A DNA stretch of 39,365 bases. Source: a virus. A program made the position numbers and the translations under genes. This document shows positions 28,964 through 36,009 of this stretch, one piece after another (the stretch's first letter is position 1; every line of letters starts with the position of its first letter). The notes under the pieces were generated by a model. It made no database searches. It worked only from the letters and a program-made list of their open reading frames with translations, and was not told the origin of the DNA. Where the stretch lies: positions 1-39,365 of IMG/VR virus record IMGVR_UViG_3300031566_000152, one strand, 5' to 3'.

Positions 28964-29713
28964 ATGCCTATCAGAAAGCGCGGTTCAGTCCCTTCCCTTC
29001 CTTCGGTTTCTACAGTTCTCCCGGTCAATCCGGTTCTGCCCTCTATGGCTGTGGCCCCACGTGCGGCAAACCATATTGCGTATAATCCGGGCCGATATCC
29101 TCACGTGCCCGTTGAATTGGATTTCGTTTCTGTCCCTATTGACAGCGTGAGACTTGATCCGATGAATCCCCGTAAGAATGATATGGCCGCAAAAAAGCTG
29201 GCCCCGCTCCTCCGGCTTAATGGATTCAGGAAGCCAATATCAGTGGATCAAGACGGTGTGATCAGGGCCGGGAACACGGCATGGAAAGCGGCGAAGATAT
29301 TGGGCATGACTCATATTCCTGCTGTTCGGTCATCCTATACCACTGAGAGGGACAAAGTGAATTATACGGTTTCCGATAATGAAGCCGGGACATATTCGGA
29401 GTGGGATGACGAGATATTGATGCAATTGAAATCTGGAGGGTTATTGAATCAAGATGCATCCGGGTTCAACGATAACAAATGGAAGGGGTTGGAGCTATCG
29501 GAGGAGATGCCCCCGGCGCTGCAGGAGGTTGAGATAAAAGGTGATCATAAGGAATTGGGTGATTTTATTGTGGTGCGGTTCCCGGATTCTGAGGCTCTGG
29601 CGGAGTTCAAATTGCGGATCGGTATGGGTATCAATGAACGGGCAATCGAAGCGGCCGCATTCATAAGCGCTGTCCAGGGCATGACGGCGGTTGATACAGG
29701 AGTTCCATTTTGA
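28964..29713 (+). CDS. ParB/Srx-fold protein
   Basis: 249 residues, AGGAGGCACAA before the ATG. After a Pro/Val-rich lead, residues 50-130 match the ParB N-terminal fold: VSVPIDSVRLDPMNPRKN, then LLRLNGFRKPISVDQDG, VIRAGNTAWKAAKILGM and HIPAV. The usual G-x-x-R box reads G-N-T-A-W. The C-terminal half is unassigned. There is no ParA and no helix-turn-helix, so plasmid partition is unlikely. ParB-fold proteins occur in phage DNA-modification loci. It overlaps the PLP gene start by four bases. Confidence 0.8.
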   Translation: MPIRKRGSVPSLPSVSTVLPVNPVLPSMAVAPRAANHIAYNPGRYPHVPVELDFVSVPIDSVRLDPMNPRKNDMAAKKLAPLLRLNGFRKPISVDQDGVIRAGNTAWKAAKILGMTHIPAVRSSYTTERDKVNYTVSDNEAGTYSEWDDEILMQLKSGGLLNQDASGFNDNKWKGLELSEEMPPALQEVEIKGDHKELGDFIVVRFPDSEALAEFKLRIGMGINERAIEAAAFISAVQGMTAVDTGVPF

Positions 29714-30522
29714 TAAAATCCAATACTCCTTTTGAGATATATCAGATAGGTGACCGACAAAACATATGGGTGAAGCGGGAGGACTTGTGCTGCGAACAGG
29801 CAAGATTTTCCAAGATACGGGGAGTTGAAGCGCATCTGCGCTCAGTCTCAGCTTCTACAATCGGTGTGCTGGATACCCGGCACAGCAAAGCCGGATGGGG
29901 TGTGGCGTATATTGCTCAGCAGATGGGGAAACGGTGCGTGGTATATTATCCTTCATTCAAAGATATACGCGGGCTCCGGCTGTCCCAAGTGAAAGCGAAG
30001 GAATGGGGAGCTGAATTGGTTGGACTACCTGCGGGGCGCTCCTGCATTCTATACCACAGGGCTTGCCGCGATCTGGCAGAGCGGTTCCCCAATAGTTATA
30101 TGTTGCCCAATGCGTTGAAACTATCGGAGAGCGTAGAGGAGACAGCCAATGAATTGATAGCGTATACTCCCAGGGAGATGCTTATTGATAAAGCGCTTTG
30201 GGTGGTTTCTGTCTCCTCCGGGACGCTGGCGGCGGGGGTGATCAAGGGGATAGAAACTATTGGTGCGAAGCCAACAGTGATCCTTCATATGGGGTATAGC
30301 AGGAAACGCGAAGCGCTCGTGAAGTATATCCAGAAATACGCGGCCGGGGATCGCTTCCGTATACTCATGGTTGATGAAGGATACAGCTATGCGGATGCCG
30401 TGCGGTTCCCCTGTCCCTTCCCCTGCAATCCGTTTTATGATTTGAAGGCGTGGCGCTGGCTGTACAAAAAGGCGGAGCAGATGAGCTATGATCCAATAAT
30501 CTTTTGGAATATAGGAGAGTGA
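29710..30522 (+). CDS. PLP-dependent enzyme, fold type II (TrpB/ACC deaminase-like)
   Basis: 270 residues with a TTG start overlapping the ParB-like stop; AGGAG is seven bases upstream. Fold-type-II features: VKREDLCCEQARFSKIRG with the likely PLP lysine in F-S-K-I-R-G, the VLDTRHSKAGWGVAYIAQQM segment like the substrate loop and helix, and SSGTLAAGV as the phosphate-binding loop. The length is short for TrpB (about 400). Next to the transferase and kinase genes, it most likely decarboxylates or rearranges the amino acid attached to thymidine in DNA (inference). Confidence 0.82.
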   Translation: MIKSNTPFEIYQIGDRQNIWVKREDLCCEQARFSKIRGVEAHLRSVSASTIGVLDTRHSKAGWGVAYIAQQMGKRCVVYYPSFKDIRGLRLSQVKAKEWGAELVGLPAGRSCILYHRACRDLAERFPNSYMLPNALKLSESVEETANELIAYTPREMLIDKALWVVSVSSGTLAAGVIKGIETIGAKPTVILHMGYSRKREALVKYIQKYAAGDRFRILMVDEGYSYADAVRFPCPFPCNPFYDLKAWRWLYKKAEQMSYDPIIFWNIGE

Positions 30523-30524
30523 AC

Positions 30525-31835
30525 ATGAAGCGGAAAACTGAATATCAAGATTTTCTTCAAATGGAGCGTCCCGACAGAAGGCCGGGTGGGGTTGATCCGA
30601 AGTGGGGGAGGTTTGAGTATTGGGATTTGGGGATGACGCGGAATGCGCGGGAGGAGAACAAAAGCACATACAAAGTTTTTCTTGACCCGGCTCCTCACGT
30701 TATTCTTGACCAGAACGTCCCGTTGAGAGGATGGTATAAATCAAAAGCGGAGCCGAAGGGGAAGCGGGCGCGGCCCTGTTTCACCGAAGCGCTCCTGACT
30801 CAGCCCTATGGAGGAGCTTGCCCGGTGAGGTGTCAATTTTGTTATATCAATAATGGTATACGGGGGTATCGGGGAAGCGGTGTGACTGTGGTTGATCCTG
30901 AATATCCTTTGAAGATAGAGCGGCAGCTATCCAAAATGCGTTTCGGGTGGAATGCATATATTTCAAGTTTCACGGAGCCATTCCAGAAACTGGAGGAGAA
31001 ATTTCACAACACTGAGCAGCTATCTGAAATCGTGACAAGCTATGGGCTGCCCCTGTTCTATCTCACGCGGCAGGTTCCCCCGGACTGGGCTTGGAAGTAT
31101 TTGAAACTGAGCAAATACAGCTATCAACAATTCAGCATCATCACTCCGGATCGGGAAGTATACAGGCGGCTATCTCCCGGAGCGGCCCCGTTGGATGATC
31201 TTCTGAAGGTGATTGCGGAGATGAGGAAAGCCGGAATATATACGTCAATCCAAATCAATCCAATTCTCCCCGGAATTATCCAGCCGGAGGAGATCATGGA
31301 GTTGATACGGGAGTTGGGGAAAGCCGGAGCCCGTCACGCCATTTTCAAGTTTGTGGAAATTGTATCCCCAGCGGCCGGAGCTATGACAACTAAGATGCTG
31401 CAACTATTTCCCGGAAAGCGGGGGGAGGAGTTTGCGGCGCTGTTCTCCGATACTATTGGGGGACTCCGGACAGTGCAAGAAACATATCGTATAAGGGCTC
31501 TGCGGAGATTCCAGGTGACGTGCGCGGAGAACGGAATGACTATGGGACTTTGCTATGAATATAAATATACCCGTGATAATCAGGGAAACGTAGTTGATAA
31601 GACAGGAGAGTCACTGGGGCGGGAGTTCTGCACAGCTGATCAATGCCACGGGTTTCGCATACCGATACACGTGAAGGTGAAAGGTAAATTTCAGCCATAT
31701 GAGGGTTGCCCCCCGTCGGGCTGTCTATATTGTAAAGAACAAACGGAGGGCCAGAGCGTCCCCTGCGGCAGTCCCTTCCTCCAGGAAGCCACAGCCCTCC
31801 GGCCTTCGGATTATAACAATTGGAGGAGGGGATGA
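30525..31835 (+). CDS. Radical SAM enzyme 1, spore photoproduct lyase-like
   Basis: 436 residues from ATG 30525 with AGGAGAG before it. The 4Fe-4S/SAM motif is C99-x3-C103-x2-C106 (GACPVRCQFCY). A TIM-barrel pattern follows (WNAYISSFTEPFQKLE, YGLPLFYLTRQVPPDW, YTSIQINPILPGII). The C-terminal 90 residues hold further cysteines (FCTADQC, GCPPSGCLYC, VPCG) that could bind a second cluster or zinc. By analogy with M6-type phages it may isomerise an N-linked aminoacyl thymidine to a C-linked one (inference). The RMF-like gene starts at its stop. Confidence 0.85.
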   Translation: MKRKTEYQDFLQMERPDRRPGGVDPKWGRFEYWDLGMTRNAREENKSTYKVFLDPAPHVILDQNVPLRGWYKSKAEPKGKRARPCFTEALLTQPYGGACPVRCQFCYINNGIRGYRGSGVTVVDPEYPLKIERQLSKMRFGWNAYISSFTEPFQKLEEKFHNTEQLSEIVTSYGLPLFYLTRQVPPDWAWKYLKLSKYSYQQFSIITPDREVYRRLSPGAAPLDDLLKVIAEMRKAGIYTSIQINPILPGIIQPEEIMELIRELGKAGARHAIFKFVEIVSPAAGAMTTKMLQLFPGKRGEEFAALFSDTIGGLRTVQETYRIRALRRFQVTCAENGMTMGLCYEYKYTRDNQGNVVDKTGESLGREFCTADQCHGFRIPIHVKVKGKFQPYEGCPPSGCLYCKEQTEGQSVPCGSPFLQEATALRPSDYNNWRRG

Positions 31836-32071
31836 GCAGCACATTCAGGGCAATACAGATAGCTGGCTATGCGGCGCGGAAAGCAGGTGCTATGATGTGG
31901 GACTGTCCCTATGATAGTAAATCACCACTATTTAAGATATGGGAAATAGGATGGAAGGCGGCAGAGCATGAAGAGAGTAAGAATGGGAGTGCTGAGCAAA
32001 ATGAAGGATTCTCCCCTATGGCCATGGTTCAAACTATTCGCAGAGCTACACAAAATCAGCGGGGACATTGA
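31832..32071 (+). CDS. RMF/CrpP-like small protein
   Basis: 79 residues, ATGA overlap with the radical SAM gene and GGAGGAGGGG before the start. Residues 10-45 resemble the ribosome modulation factor/CrpP family: a small-residue helix (IAGYAARKAGAMMWD), C-P-Y, then a F-K-I-W-E-I-G-W-K-A-A box. RMF-like domains bind ribosomes; phage copies have unclear roles. The second half overlaps the transferase gene in another frame by at least 70 bases. Confidence 0.6.
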   Translation: MSSTFRAIQIAGYAARKAGAMMWDCPYDSKSPLFKIWEIGWKAAEHEESKNGSAEQNEGFSPMAMVQTIRRATQNQRGH

Positions 32072-32936
32072 TCCAGTTTATCCGGTTCTGCGGAAGGTAC
32101 ATGAACTGAGGAACAATAGCCAGGAACAGTCCATCTGGCATGCTCTCCTCTATGTGACATGGTACAATTTAGGGAGCGCTGAGAAAGTGCTTCAGCGTTG
32201 GCCACTTCCCTCCCCAGTGGTCATGGAGGAAGCTGGATTGATCGGTCATATTTCTTGGGGTGGATTGAAGACAGGAGTGGAGCGGCGCGGATTCCGGGGG
32301 AAGGACAATGAAAAGCCATTCCAGATGATCAACGGGCTTTTAGCTTCTGTTTGGAAAAACTACAGGACGTTGGAGGAGTGGTTGACGGAAACAACGAAGC
32401 CGGGAGGACGGTTGGGTTGGCAGCGGCTCTATATCGATTTCCAAGGCTATCCGGGAAACGGGACGTGGGCCGCGTATAAGTGGTGCGATTTGACGAAAAA
32501 TGTATTGGGGTATAAGATCACCAGCCCCGATATTGGACTGGGAGGAGGGGGGCGCAATGCTGGGCCTGTGCCTGGGTTGTCGCTGATGTCAGGGGAGCCG
32601 TGGGAGCGGTGCGCGCGGGATGAGGAATTTCAAGAGCAGTTCTACAGAGAAGCGCGGGAAGATGGATTGCCGTGGGATGGGTTGGAGGAGATGGAAACGT
32701 GCTTATGTGACTTCAATTCTACATATAAGGGCACGTATTATTTGGGCCATGATATTGATAAACAGATGGAAGATATACGGGACTGTCCGAAGGAATATTG
32801 GGAAGCGCGGCGGCTATCCTTCCACCCAGAGTATTTGGGAGAGATCCAGGGATGGGACGGGGTGAGGAAGGACAGGAAGCCCAAATTCAAGAGATGGCTT
32901 GAAGCTCAGAAAACTATAACGGGGAGCGATATATGA
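31968..32936 (+). CDS. Amino acid:DNA transferase (alpha-glutamyl/putrescinyl thymine pyrophosphorylase family)
   Basis: 322 residues if ATG 31968 is used; ATGs at 31983 and 32001 are also in frame and no ribosome binding site decides. The protein resembles the aGPT-PPlase family, with a helical DNA-glycosylase-like fold: WPWFKLFAELHKISGDIDP, SIWHALLYVTWYNLGSAEK, ASVWKNYRTLEEWL and GNGTWAAYKWCDL. Family members replace the pyrophosphate on activated 5-hydroxymethyl-dU in DNA with an amino acid or polyamine. The kinase gene that makes the substrate follows with an ATGA overlap. Which amine is used cannot be read from the sequence. Confidence 0.8.
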   Translation: MKRVRMGVLSKMKDSPLWPWFKLFAELHKISGDIDPVYPVLRKVHELRNNSQEQSIWHALLYVTWYNLGSAEKVLQRWPLPSPVVMEEAGLIGHISWGGLKTGVERRGFRGKDNEKPFQMINGLLASVWKNYRTLEEWLTETTKPGGRLGWQRLYIDFQGYPGNGTWAAYKWCDLTKNVLGYKITSPDIGLGGGGRNAGPVPGLSLMSGEPWERCARDEEFQEQFYREAREDGLPWDGLEEMETCLCDFNSTYKGTYYLGHDIDKQMEDIRDCPKEYWEARRLSFHPEYLGEIQGWDGVRKDRKPKFKRWLEAQKTITGSDI

Positions 32937-33463
32937 AATTGACATTGGTTGGGATCGGAGGAGTGCCCGCAACAGGGAAAAGCCGAATAGTATCAGAGAT
33001 TGTGAGGAGGGAGGGATTGAACCGTATTTTCAAATACGGCACTCTGGTGTTCCATACCCGTGATAAGCGGGATTTATACGTGCTGGGGAAGTATGAGGAG
33101 GGGGAAGCCTTCCCCGGAACGGATAGACTGAGCATGGCCGTGATTAAAGATGCGCTGGGCTATGTGCACAGACTCCTTTTTACTTCAGCGGAGATTCCGG
33201 CCCGTATGATATTTGAAGGTGATCGGCTTTTCTGCAATCGGTTTCTTGATGAAGCGGAAGCGGATGAAAAGTATTTTTTGATCCTGGCCACTGCGACTCA
33301 TATCTTGTCGAAGCGACGGGAGGAGCGCAAACAGTCAGAGGTATTTCTGAAGGGGCGGGCCACGAAGATACGGAACATGATGACGCGGCCTGATGTGGTA
33401 GTGATGGATCACAATGAGCCGAAGGATACTGAATTCATTATTAAATATGTAATGGGGAGGTAA
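32933..33463 (+). CDS. 5-hydroxymethyluridine DNA kinase (P-loop)
   Basis: 176 residues, GGGAG before the ATG. Walker A is GGVPATGKS (residues 8-16). Later features of the phage 5-hmdU DNA kinase family are FEGDRLFCNRFLDE and a helix RREERKQSEVFLKGRATKIR. The family phosphorylates 5-hydroxymethyl-dU within DNA, giving the pyrophosphate substrate of the transferase. The ATGA overlap with the transferase gene supports co-expression. A general nucleotide or tRNA kinase is the less likely alternative. Confidence 0.82.
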   Translation: MKLTLVGIGGVPATGKSRIVSEIVRREGLNRIFKYGTLVFHTRDKRDLYVLGKYEEGEAFPGTDRLSMAVIKDALGYVHRLLFTSAEIPARMIFEGDRLFCNRFLDEAEADEKYFLILATATHILSKRREERKQSEVFLKGRATKIRNMMTRPDVVVMDHNEPKDTEFIIKYVMGR

Positions 33464-33468
33464 GTGGT

Positions 33469-33783
33469 ATGGGTATCGGAATTATTCAATGGGCTCCGGG
33501 AGAGAAAGAGAAGTTGGCGCAGATCAAGGATTATATCCGTGAGGATTTGGACCGTGCCTATACGTCGAACAATGGCAATATTCACACGGCCATTGATGTT
33601 GTTCAGGTGAAGCTGAGGCGCGTTGCTCCCCGCGATCCGCAACAGCGGAGGAAATATGAATTCATAGCCAACGAAGCAGGGGAGGAGTGGCTGGCGGGGA
33701 TCGGACAGCCCCGCAAGGTCAGTCCATCCCCTATTTTTGATGTGATACGTGGTATGGTGTTCGGGGGGCGGAGGAGGGGATGA
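33469..33783 (+). CDS. Unknown small protein in modification cluster
   Basis: 104 residues, GGGAGG eight bases before the ATG. Helical N-terminus (EKEKLAQIKDYIREDLDRAY), then a basic middle (KLRRVAPRDPQQRRKYEF). No family recognised. It overlaps the next gene (ATGA). Confidence 0.6.
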   Translation: MGIGIIQWAPGEKEKLAQIKDYIREDLDRAYTSNNGNIHTAIDVVQVKLRRVAPRDPQQRRKYEFIANEAGEEWLAGIGQPRKVSPSPIFDVIRGMVFGGRRRG

Positions 33784-33995
33784 AGCGGAAGCGACAGAAA
33801 CGGACAGGTGACCCGATGCTATCCCGATGGCTACGGGAGTATTGCCCGCGTGGGTGTGGTTGCCGGTTGAGGACGGACGGAAAGTTGATTTGGTGTTCAT
33901 ATATTCATTGTAATTTTTCACAGGAGGTACATGATGGCGGATTTGGGAGATTTACTCAGAGAGTTGATGCACAAAGCGGAGGAATGCCAGTGTGA
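33780..33995 (+). CDS. Small zinc-ribbon protein
   Basis: 71 residues, GGAGGAGGGG before the ATG. CPRGCGC (residues 22-28) and CSYIHC (39-44) form a zinc ribbon with the strands CRLRTDGKLIWC between them. The basic lead (KRKRQKRTGDP) suggests nucleic-acid contact. The last 64 bases overlap the following gene. Confidence 0.58.
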   Translation: MKRKRQKRTGDPMLSRWLREYCPRGCGCRLRTDGKLIWCSYIHCNFSQEVHDGGFGRFTQRVDAQSGGMPV

Positions 33996-34296
33996 TAGTT
34001 GTCGGCAGGAGCGCGGATTGCCTCCCCGGCCCCGGCGGGATATACGGGAGTTGACCATGGAGGAGATGGAGGAGATGACGTTGATCAAAGCGCTTCGACG
34101 GGAAGCGGAAGCGATGAATGAGAGGGCGAAGTCAGTTTTGAATGAAGCCAATGCCCGCAGGGAAGTATTCTGGGCAAAGATCGACAGGAAGTATAATGGC
34201 TATGATAAGAATTTCACGATTAGCAAAGATAACATGCTTCAGGAGGTTTCAGATATCCCAGAGAATAAGGAGGAGGAGGAGAAATCAAATGGCTGA
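33934..34296 (+). CDS. Coiled-coil protein with Cys motif, unknown function
   Basis: 120 residues; ATG 33934 is six bases after AGGAGG, ATG 33931 is an alternative. CQCDSC (residues 18-23) could bind metal or form disulphides. Residues 36-85 are a long charged helix (ELTMEEMEEMTLIKALRREA), probably a coiled coil, with an acidic end. No family recognised. Confidence 0.6.
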   Translation: MADLGDLLRELMHKAEECQCDSCRQERGLPPRPRRDIRELTMEEMEEMTLIKALRREAEAMNERAKSVLNEANARREVFWAKIDRKYNGYDKNFTISKDNMLQEVSDIPENKEEEEKSNG

Positions 34297-34645
34297 CACA
34301 AATGGTGGAAAAGTTGAGAGCCTTCCCAAGTGGGCTCAGGGGTATATCAAAAGTTTGGAGCGGGAACGTGAGACGGCTGTGAATGCGCTGTTCGACTATA
34401 CAAAGAATCAAGAGCCATCTCAATTTTATTCTGATTCCTTCCTACGCTTGGGGCAAACCAGTATGGTGAAACAGTATATTCAAGCAGATAGTGTGACTTG
34501 TGAGATCAAGGGACTGTCTGTGGATATGCGTGTTCATGACGATAATTCCATATCAATTATGTTCAGCGAAAAATATGGATATGAGGCGGTTTTGGTTCCC
34601 TTTGCCAGTAATTCATTTAGAATAAAAAGGATAAAAAGGCAATGA
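34289..34645 (+). CDS. Phage protein of unknown function (LPKWAQ type)
   Basis: 118 residues from ATG 34289, overlapping the previous stop by eight bases; GGAGGAGGAG lies upstream. It begins with LPKWAQGYIKSLERERE, a pattern I recall from many small phage proteins. The second half is beta (VTCEIKGLSVDMRVHDDNSI, then AVLVPFASNSFRIKRIK). Function unknown. Confidence 0.6.
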   Translation: MADTNGGKVESLPKWAQGYIKSLERERETAVNALFDYTKNQEPSQFYSDSFLRLGQTSMVKQYIQADSVTCEIKGLSVDMRVHDDNSISIMFSEKYGYEAVLVPFASNSFRIKRIKRQ

Positions 34646-36009
34646 AAAGAAGGCGCATCACTCCCACTGTTCCGGCCCCGGCCCCGGCCCCGGCTCCGGT
34701 TCCTGATCGGTTCTATCCATCTCCACGTTGGAGTGGGGAAATACTGGATTGTTCGATGCCGATGACGTTTGATCAGTTCTCTCGCTGTTCATATGACTGT
34801 CTATATTGCTTCTCCTATTTCCAGCGTTCAGTGCGTCATCTCAATCCACTACAGAATAAGGACGGGAAACGGGAATTGTATACACATGAGGCCCCGTATC
34901 CAGTGAACGTCCCGGAAATCAAAGCTATTTTTTCCGGAGAGAAGCGCAGTCAATTCTCCGGGTACATAGATGAAAAGGTGTGGATGCAGTGGGGAGGGCT
35001 GTCAGATCCTTTTGATGAATTTGAGCGGAAGCAAGGCGTTGGGCTGGAGCTGCTGAGGTATTTCTCCGCTCTCCAGTATCCTATCTGTTTCAGTACGAAG
35101 GGGACGTGGTGGGTATATGATGAACGGTATATGGAGCTATTCCGGCGGAACAGAGAGCGCTGGAATGTGAAATTCAGTATTATCAATCTGGACGCGGAGC
35201 GCTCCCGGAAGATAGAGCGCGGTTGCCCTCCCCCAGCGGATAGATTGAAAGCGATGAGGGAACTATATGAATCAGGGTGCAGTGCCACCCTGCGGCTCCG
35301 GCCGTTTATCATAGGGCTGTCGGACAGGGATGATGAGTATTTGGAGCTGATCGCTCAGGCACATGAACAGGGAGCCACGGCTCTCTCCACTGAGTTTTTC
35401 TGTCTGGAGGGAAGGATAATTGACCGGACGCGATATGACAAGATGAGTGAGGTGCTGGGGTTTGACCTGTTGGATTTCTACAAGCGGAACAGTCCGAAGC
35501 GGGGAGGGTATATGAGGCTCAACTGGAAAATCAAGGAGCCCTATGTCAACAAGATGGAACGACTATGCCGGACGCTGGGAATGCGGTTCTATGTCTCCGA
35601 TGCGCATCACAAGGATCGCTGTGCGACGGGGAGCTGCTGCGGGCTCCCGGAGGGCTCCAACTACCATCGAGGACAATTCACTCAGGCGATAGTGATTGCG
35701 CGGCAGCGCGGTGAAGTCCGGTTCTCCGATATTGAACCGTATATTCTCCGGTGCTTTAAAAATATTAAAGCGACTCAAGCGACTAATGGACTGAATTTTA
35801 TGCGCGGAAGTCCGGGACAGCGGGCGCGGTTCAAAGACTTCACAATATATGATATGTTTCGATATTTTTGGAATGAGCCGCAAGACGCTAAAAGTCCTTA
35901 TAAGTATTTCGCCGGAGCCCTCCGGCCCGACAGAATAGACGGCGACGGAAACGTGGTTTATAGGTTTCATGGCTATCAGGAGCCAGCAAAGGGGGGCGAG
36001 CTTATTTGA
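34642..36009 (+). CDS. Radical SAM enzyme 2, spore photoproduct lyase-like
   Basis: 455 residues, ATGA overlap with the previous gene. A PAPAPAPAPVP lead is followed by the cluster motif C49-x3-C53-x2-C56 (RCSYDCLYCF). The pattern MQWGGLSDPFDEFERK and YPICFSTKG is like the SPL/YgaQ-type radical SAM branch. Near the C-terminus DRCATGSCCGLPEG adds three cysteines. It is the last gene before the second control element. It is related in type to enzyme 1 but clearly distinct in sequence, so it probably does a different step on the same modified base (inference). Confidence 0.82.
   Translation: MKRRRITPTVPAPAPAPAPVPDRFYPSPRWSGEILDCSMPMTFDQFSRCSYDCLYCFSYFQRSVRHLNPLQNKDGKRELYTHEAPYPVNVPEIKAIFSGEKRSQFSGYIDEKVWMQWGGLSDPFDEFERKQGVGLELLRYFSALQYPICFSTKGTWWVYDERYMELFRRNRERWNVKFSIINLDAERSRKIERGCPPPADRLKAMRELYESGCSATLRLRPFIIGLSDRDDEYLELIAQAHEQGATALSTEFFCLEGRIIDRTRYDKMSEVLGFDLLDFYKRNSPKRGGYMRLNWKIKEPYVNKMERLCRTLGMRFYVSDAHHKDRCATGSCCGLPEGSNYHRGQFTQAIVIARQRGEVRFSDIEPYILRCFKNIKATQATNGLNFMRGSPGQRARFKDFTIYDMFRYFWNEPQDAKSPYKYFAGALRPDRIDGDGNVVYRFHGYQEPAKGGELI

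Follow-up and report, generated by a model that had tools for sequence, protein, structure and literature searches.

Enzymes of the TET/JBP type require O2, and this raises the question of how the phages of strictly anaerobic bacteria begin TET-style hypermodification of their DNA. The window, by which we mean the whole stretch of DNA analysed here (39,365 bases, the complete IMG/VR record IMGVR_UViG_3300031566_000152), is virus DNA with genes for a tail sheath protein, a tail tape-measure-like protein and a Mu gp48-like protein. It also carries an operon containing two radical SAM enzymes, and it is the role of the second of these, rSAM2, that we consider here.

The operon and its genes

The genes of the operon, and the basis on which each was identified, are as follows.

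28964-29713, plus strand: ParB_N-like protein, heading the operon (domain/family match)
29710-30522, plus strand: PLP enzyme of PALP fold, phrog_7093, counterpart of M6 gp052 (family match)
30525-31835, plus strand: rSAM1 (enzyme 1), phrog_9252, M6 gp053-like (family match, ~42% identity)
31968-32936, plus strand: amino acid:DNA transferase (ADDT, PF18724; family match)
32933-33463, plus strand: P-loop kinase related to 5-hmU DNA kinases (family match)
33469-34645, plus strand: four small ORFs (33469-33783, 33780-33995, 33931-34296 and 34289-34645) in the interval between kinase and rSAM2
34642-36009, plus strand: rSAM2, a radical SAM enzyme with a predicted spore photoproduct lyase (SPL)-like fold (ORF, motif and predicted fold)

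An hmU-type DNA kinase and an amino acid:DNA transferase are encoded together in this one operon, the combination by which we recognise thymidine hypermodification. The four small genes that a sequence-only reading of the window had placed between the kinase and rSAM2 are indeed there, overlapping or separated by gaps of a few bases and on the same strand as their neighbours; the ORF at 33780-33995 recurs in one other rSAM2 locus, and the remaining three have no counterpart in other rSAM2 loci. Neither a PF00303 hydroxymethylase nor a TET/JBP protein is present as a source of 5-hmU in the 39,365-base record, itself a fragment. A scan of the window for promoters and terminators gave no more signals than were seen in shuffled sequences, and the model of the ParB-like protein is mediocre (mean pLDDT 77.4, pTM 0.54). 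A very near relative of this virus has also been sampled, as a second IMG/VR contig (3300031539_000180) encodes an rSAM1 that is 100% identical to that of the window; that contig stops soon past rSAM1 and has no rSAM2 on it.

The predicted fold of rSAM2 and its relation to spore photoproduct lyase

The rSAM2 ORF is intact and encodes 455 amino acids from an ATG start. The C49/C53/C56 triad, described as intact in the sequence-only reading, has the CX3CX2C spacing of the radical SAM motif and does not vary in any of the 61 aligned rows. Radical_SAM is the sole Pfam match, and a weak one (E 2.7e-4, 21.6 bits against a cut-off of 29.5 bits), with no Tet_JBP domain, whilst a PDB sequence search gave 0 matches with the protein itself and a best E of only 0.03 with the A4 profile. 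Two radical SAM families of NCBIfam, PA0069 and Rv2578c, also match weakly (48.7 and 43 bits), far under their cut-offs of 360 and 430 bits, and a known metabolic family was rejected on these scores. The AlphaFold2 model is confident (mean pLDDT 91.9, pTM 0.90), and the PDB structures that it matches best are those of radical SAM enzymes. The top six positions are all occupied by SPL, both in Foldseek (E 5e-7 to 2e-5) and, among the matches listed, in VIA (Z 19.5-19.9 over residues 12-320, the next entry scoring 16.4), the best VIA match being 4fhf, in which SPL is complexed with a dinucleoside photoproduct; lipoyl synthases are also found among the structural matches. A confident model with an SPL match, taken together with relatives in 40 IMG/VR loci, places the rSAM2 ORF far beyond chance.

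That the two radical SAM enzymes of the operon are of the same SPL-like type and yet have little sequence in common, as had been suggested, is borne out by profile–profile comparison (probability 98.7 over 248 columns, 20% identity). The phrog_9252 family matches enzyme 1 at 3.3e-108 and is absent from the rSAM2 listing, and the C-terminal cysteines differ, again in line with the earlier suggestion: C332-C333 is present in 60 of 61 rSAM2 rows (with C37 in addition in 61 of 61), whereas rSAM1 has C343, C374, C395, C400, C403 and C414, each kept in 6 of 6 rows. Judged from family matches and cysteines, rSAM2 is a member of a family other than that of enzyme 1.

The likeness of rSAM2 to SPL consists of the radical SAM triad and the predicted fold across model residues 12-320, at an identity of 15-16%, and a comparison of sequence profiles is weak (probability 8.3). 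Unlike SPL, rSAM2 carries an extra C-terminal region containing a CC motif, C332-C333, for which there is no aligned SPL counterpart. The two residues by which SPL itself is recognised, the hydrogen donor Cys141 and the radical-relay Tyr99 (B. subtilis numbering), are also missing, the corresponding MAFFT columns being, in all 61 rSAM2 rows, L, M or V and Phe, respectively. This mapping rests on the MAFFT alignment plus structural ranking and its register at Cys141 is uncertain by one residue, the neighbouring residue of the window protein (G119) also not being cysteine. The SPL cysteine is likewise missing from rSAM1, where the column is F or Y in 6 of 6 rows.

In PMC3742179, SPL is described as taking the C6 hydrogen of the photoproduct, with fragmentation then giving a putative thymine methyl radical that is quenched by Cys141; in the C141A mutant, the same paper states, this radical is trapped by SO2-. 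An SPL-like pocket from which the quenching cysteine is missing would therefore be suited to functionalising the thymine methyl group. The fold could also be read as that of a DNA repair or host-directed enzyme, a mere passenger in a cargo region of the genome, and relatives of enzyme 1 do bear the annotation 'DNA repair photolyase', but we consider this very improbable given the missing catalytic Cys and Tyr and the systematic pattern, described below, by which systems have one of rSAM2, TET or PF00303.

Gene partners of rSAM2 and sources of the hydroxymethyl handle

Relatives of rSAM2 were found in 40 IMG/VR loci (28-64% identity) and in 29 loci of a bacterial genome collection (26-50% identity); tblastn searches with the window protein against 50,697 phage records, and with the divergent rSAM2 of locus L041 against isolated phages, gave no match. 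The genome loci come from 10 Bacteroidia, 9 Clostridia, 2 Negativicutes, 2 Spirochaetia, 1 Lentisphaeria and 5 other or unclassified hosts, a list of 29 loci rather than 29 genomes (L046 and L047 pair up, as do L049 and L050) that stands without a matched set of TET-bearing hosts. The named hosts and sources (gut, rumen) we take to be mostly anaerobic.

Partner genes were counted using HMMs (E <= 1e-5) in 41 virus loci, including the window, and the 29 genome loci, near-copies being counted in these tallies (L014/L016, L024/L056, L028/L029, L049/L050 and L010/L011, for example; 64 of the 69 tree rows differ). The most constant partner is a ParB-like gene, seen in 37 of the virus loci and 25 of the genome loci; the sequence-only reading was silent on the copy at 28964-29713. 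Kinase genes are found in 9/41 virus and 15/29 genome loci, ADDT genes in 7/41 and 13/29, and glycosyltransferase genes in 15/41 and 6/29, and orthologues of rSAM2 are thus not confined to phages that lack kinase and transferase. Enzyme 1 is present in four virus loci only, the window counted, and in none of the genome loci.

Several other features of these neighbourhoods can be recorded here. Many Clostridia and Negativicutes loci (L055:8267-9495, L058, L059, L061, L062, L063) have two tandem ParB-like genes directly upstream of rSAM2. Six virus loci (L026:8034-8990, L028:1022-1930 and L010:5055-5882 among them) have a gene for another radical SAM protein (cluster c8) upstream of rSAM2, that of L026 having a SPASM domain; this protein is a possible further tailoring or partner enzyme. 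A further one (cluster c43), with an N-terminal half that by eye is B12-binding-like, lies near rSAM2 in two loci (L013:7029-8327 and L019). Directly upstream of ADDT, L003 (6036-6725) and L005 (3647-4276) encode related proteins that on visual inspection look like class II glutamine amidotransferases and may possibly perform extra tailoring.

The kinase and the glycosyltransferase are alternatives. All three scanned members of the glycosyltransferase cluster match the Pfam family 'TET-Associated Glycosyltransferase' (TAGT), and one TAGT searched in phages has matches in 490 records, among them proteins annotated as beta-glucosyl-HMC-alpha-glucosyltransferase, often beside dCMP hydroxymethylase. 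Over 69 full-length rSAM2 rows (the ORF of L072, at <380 amino acids, was omitted from the tree), 24 have the kinase only, 21 TAGT only, 24 neither and none both, the rows with neither including all eight members of the most divergent rSAM2 clade. On the rSAM2 tree the kinase/TAGT label requires at least eight switches, four of them forced by well-supported branches. The rSAM2 proteins of L058 and L066 are 88.9% identical and yet have opposite partners, in the orders TAGT–ParB–ParB–rSAM2 and kinase–ParB–ParB–rSAM2, respectively. Kinase and TAGT partners both need a hydroxymethyl-pyrimidine. Since rSAM2 is accompanied by one or the other but never by both, its step is likely to come before theirs rather than after, and swaps of this kind would be tolerated by the maker of a common hydroxymethyl precursor but not by an enzyme whose substrate base was already phosphorylated or glycosylated, pointing to rSAM2 as the precursor maker.

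These observations bear directly on the proposal of the sequence-only reading that rSAM2 performs a later step on a base that has already been modified. As a tailoring enzyme (forming a second C–C bond, isomerising or methylating an aminoacylated or otherwise decorated base), rSAM2 would sit naturally in an operon shared with ADDT, kinase and rSAM1, and would resemble in its role the related rSAM1, reported to have a base of this kind as its substrate in M6. However, rSAM1 is missing from 37/41 virus and 29/29 genome rSAM2 loci, the substrate would need to change from a phospho- or aminoacyl-base in one phage to a glycosyl base in another, even between rSAM2 proteins that are 89% identical, and the missing TET and PF00303 enzymes (below) would be left unexplained. 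We regard tailoring as unlikely, and the absence of rSAM1 from the majority of rSAM2 loci led us to reject a second tailoring step after rSAM1 as the main reading. What survives of the earlier interpretation is an SPL-type radical SAM enzyme that is distinct from enzyme 1 and tied to DNA hypermodification; the second C–C bond or methylation step falls away.

Similarly doubtful is the idea that rSAM2 attacks the pyrimidine methyl group but installs a nucleophile other than water, such as sulphur by way of a C37/C332/C333 cluster, for the kinase or glycosyltransferase then to act upon. Lipoyl synthase and biotin synthase are examples of sulphur insertion, and both the conserved extra cysteines of rSAM2 and the lipoyl synthases among its structural matches would fit. 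Against this, the kinase, ADDT and ParB-like proteins belong to the families of the hydroxymethyl-using TET/JBP and M6 systems, and the one TAGT tested matches phage HMC glucosyltransferases.

If rSAM2 does make the hydroxymethyl handle, it joins a short list, the known makers being PF00303-type hydroxymethylases and TET/JBP. In the 40 rSAM2 records searched (with L040 omitted as a near-copy of L036 and L001, which is part of the window, replaced by the window), TET (PF12851) was found in none and PF00303 in one. The control phages M6 and Pam3 were positive for PF00303, and the TET search was shown to work by 23 positives among kinase records. The exception with PF00303, L007 (record G006), encodes the only rSAM2 of 61 without C332/C333, a single case whose sequence appears to agree with the expected direction. 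ThyX was considered as a general handle maker and ruled out, being present in only 2 of 42 rSAM2 records.

The same relationship is seen from the side of the partner enzymes. Among 80 rSAM1 virus loci (the best 80 of 93) examined with local HMMs, 46 have a PF00303-type enzyme only, five rSAM2 only and four TET only; in 25 no handle maker was seen and in none were two found together. In the 49 of these on contigs of 15 kb or longer, which were searched for PF00303 and rSAM2, PF00303 is present in 35 and rSAM2 in five with no overlap (PF00303 in 0/5 with rSAM2 versus 35/44 without). A kinase scan (the best 80 of at least 563) gave 79 new loci, and the 26 whose contigs reach 15 kb or more, searched for TET, PF00303 and rSAM2, have TET in 23/26, PF00303 in 0/26 and rSAM2 in 0/26. 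The PF00303/TET/rSAM2 label needs at least four changes on the rSAM1 tree and the handle-source label at least eight on the kinase tree, where many long branches make the tree uncertain. Independent events across the rSAM2, rSAM1 and kinase trees therefore number in single digits, and since the rows are related, Fisher and hypergeometric values overstate independence and are not relied upon. Most records are fragments, so that the absence of TET or PF00303 from any one of them says little and the argument rests on the pattern. That pattern is strong: each system has one known or proposed handle maker, with rSAM2, TET and PF00303 mutually exclusive.

Two large M6-type rSAM1 records, L093/G053 (266 kb) and L100/G055 (249 kb), are without PF00303 and have ThyX matches in frames of 613 and 491 amino acids; L093 has a local TET-type gene in addition.

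Two further points concern the substrate. No C5-cytosine methyltransferase (PF00145) was found above cut-off in 33 rSAM2 records or in 17 TET-bearing kinase records, a match in G108 being sub-threshold, and 5-methylcytosine was rejected as the rSAM2 substrate on this basis, thymine being favoured. The substrate might instead be a free nucleotide (dTMP or dCMP), rSAM2 then being a pool-level, unrelated equivalent of the PF00303 hydroxymethylases. As set out in PMC8670742, a subset of PF00303 enzymes makes hydroxymethylpyrimidines and PF00303 enzymes, which rSAM2 would replace in M6-type systems, work on nucleotides. The SPL-like fold, with a best VIA match to SPL holding a dinucleoside photoproduct, and the ParB-like partner in 37/41 and 25/29 loci both speak against action on free nucleotides, which we think highly unlikely.

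Proposed reaction and comparison with known systems

Our preferred reading, to which we assign a probability of roughly 0.6, is that rSAM2 makes the 5-hydroxymethyl-pyrimidine handle without O2 or a nucleotide-pool hydroxymethylase, the product probably being 5-hydroxymethyluracil made from thymine in DNA, and rSAM2 thereby replacing TET/JBP. A more specific version is finely balanced and, if anything, a little more likely to be wrong than right: rSAM2 would be an O2-independent DNA thymine hydroxylase using SPL-type radical chemistry and water, the anaerobic counterpart of TET/JBP, and would provide the first step for a module that is widespread among phages of anaerobic bacteria and is made up of a ParB-like protein, rSAM2 and, interchangeably, kinase/ADDT or a glycosyltransferase.

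On this proposal rSAM2 would act on thymine in replicated phage DNA, with the ParB-like protein perhaps helping or targeting it. The 5'-deoxyadenosyl radical would abstract a hydrogen from the thymine C5 methyl group and the resulting methyl radical, unquenched in the absence of the SPL donor cysteine, would be oxidised, perhaps by a putative auxiliary Fe–S cluster that C37, C332 and C333 could carry, addition of water then giving 5-hydroxymethyl-dU. In the window, the kinase (32933-33463) would phosphorylate this handle, ADDT (31968-32936) would substitute an amino acid, and rSAM1 and the PLP enzyme would rearrange and trim the product as in phage M6. Radical SAM hydroxylation using water is, to our knowledge, rare, and we know of no radical SAM enzyme proposed as a DNA base hydroxylase before rSAM2; a literature search turned up no description of a DNA hydroxylase of the radical SAM type, although the gene family may have been mentioned earlier.

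If correct, the proposal ties SPL chemistry to the armouring of DNA and predicts that phages infecting Bacteroides, Prevotella, Clostridia and Selenomonas have modified DNA, and the window phage would have a route to an M6-type aminoethyl-thymine that operates on DNA and needs no O2 at any step. Cultured sources of rSAM2 homologues exist in B. fragilis S82 and S. ruminantium S137, and rSAM2 might serve as a tool for the O2-free writing of 5-hmU or 5-hmC.

Two known systems invite comparison. The first is that of Pseudomonas phage M6, the DNA of which carries 5-(2-aminoethyl)deoxyuridine according to PMC6449724. The M6 cluster encodes a PLP-type enzyme (gp052, annotated as threonine dehydratase), the M6/YuA radical SAM protein to which rSAM1 is ~42% identical (gp053) and gp054, which is matched by the kinase HMM and bears the annotation 'terminase small subunit'; gp058 is of the thymidylate synthase type. 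Lee et al. in 2022 reportedly identified gp053 as an isomerase of a glycinyl-thymidine. The window has counterparts of the PLP enzyme, rSAM1, transferase and kinase of the M6 5-(2-aminoethyl)-dU pathway. The difference lies in the presumed source of the handle: M6 has the PF00303 protein gp058 near its cluster and no rSAM2, whereas the window has rSAM2 and no PF00303.

The second is the TET/JBP cassette. Gordonia phage Wooper encodes, in a row, a ParB-like protein, a Tet-like J-binding protein, aGPT-Pplase2 and a 5-hmU DNA kinase, and Rhodococcus phage Tonitrus has the same order with small insertions, its kinase being annotated as adenylate kinase; PMC11955845 treats the cassette as a possible thymidine hypermodification system. 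The order ParB–TET–ADDT–kinase also occurs in metagenomic kinase loci (L153, L166 and L216, for example), and the locus of Bacteroides fragilis S82 (L053) runs ParB–ADDT–kinase–rSAM2. HMMs built from rSAM2 loci match the Wooper and Tonitrus proteins at 3e-17 and 5e-15 (ParB), 8e-43 and 1e-41 (ADDT) and 3e-20 and 3e-22 (kinase), respectively, so that the two modules are similarly compact and share homologous ParB, ADDT/aGPT-Pplase2 and kinase proteins. Where Wooper and Tonitrus have the O2-dependent TET/JBP enzyme, however, rSAM2 loci have a non-homologous radical SAM protein, encoded elsewhere in the module, and, unlike the Wooper/Tonitrus cassette, they are found mostly in hosts of anaerobic lineages.
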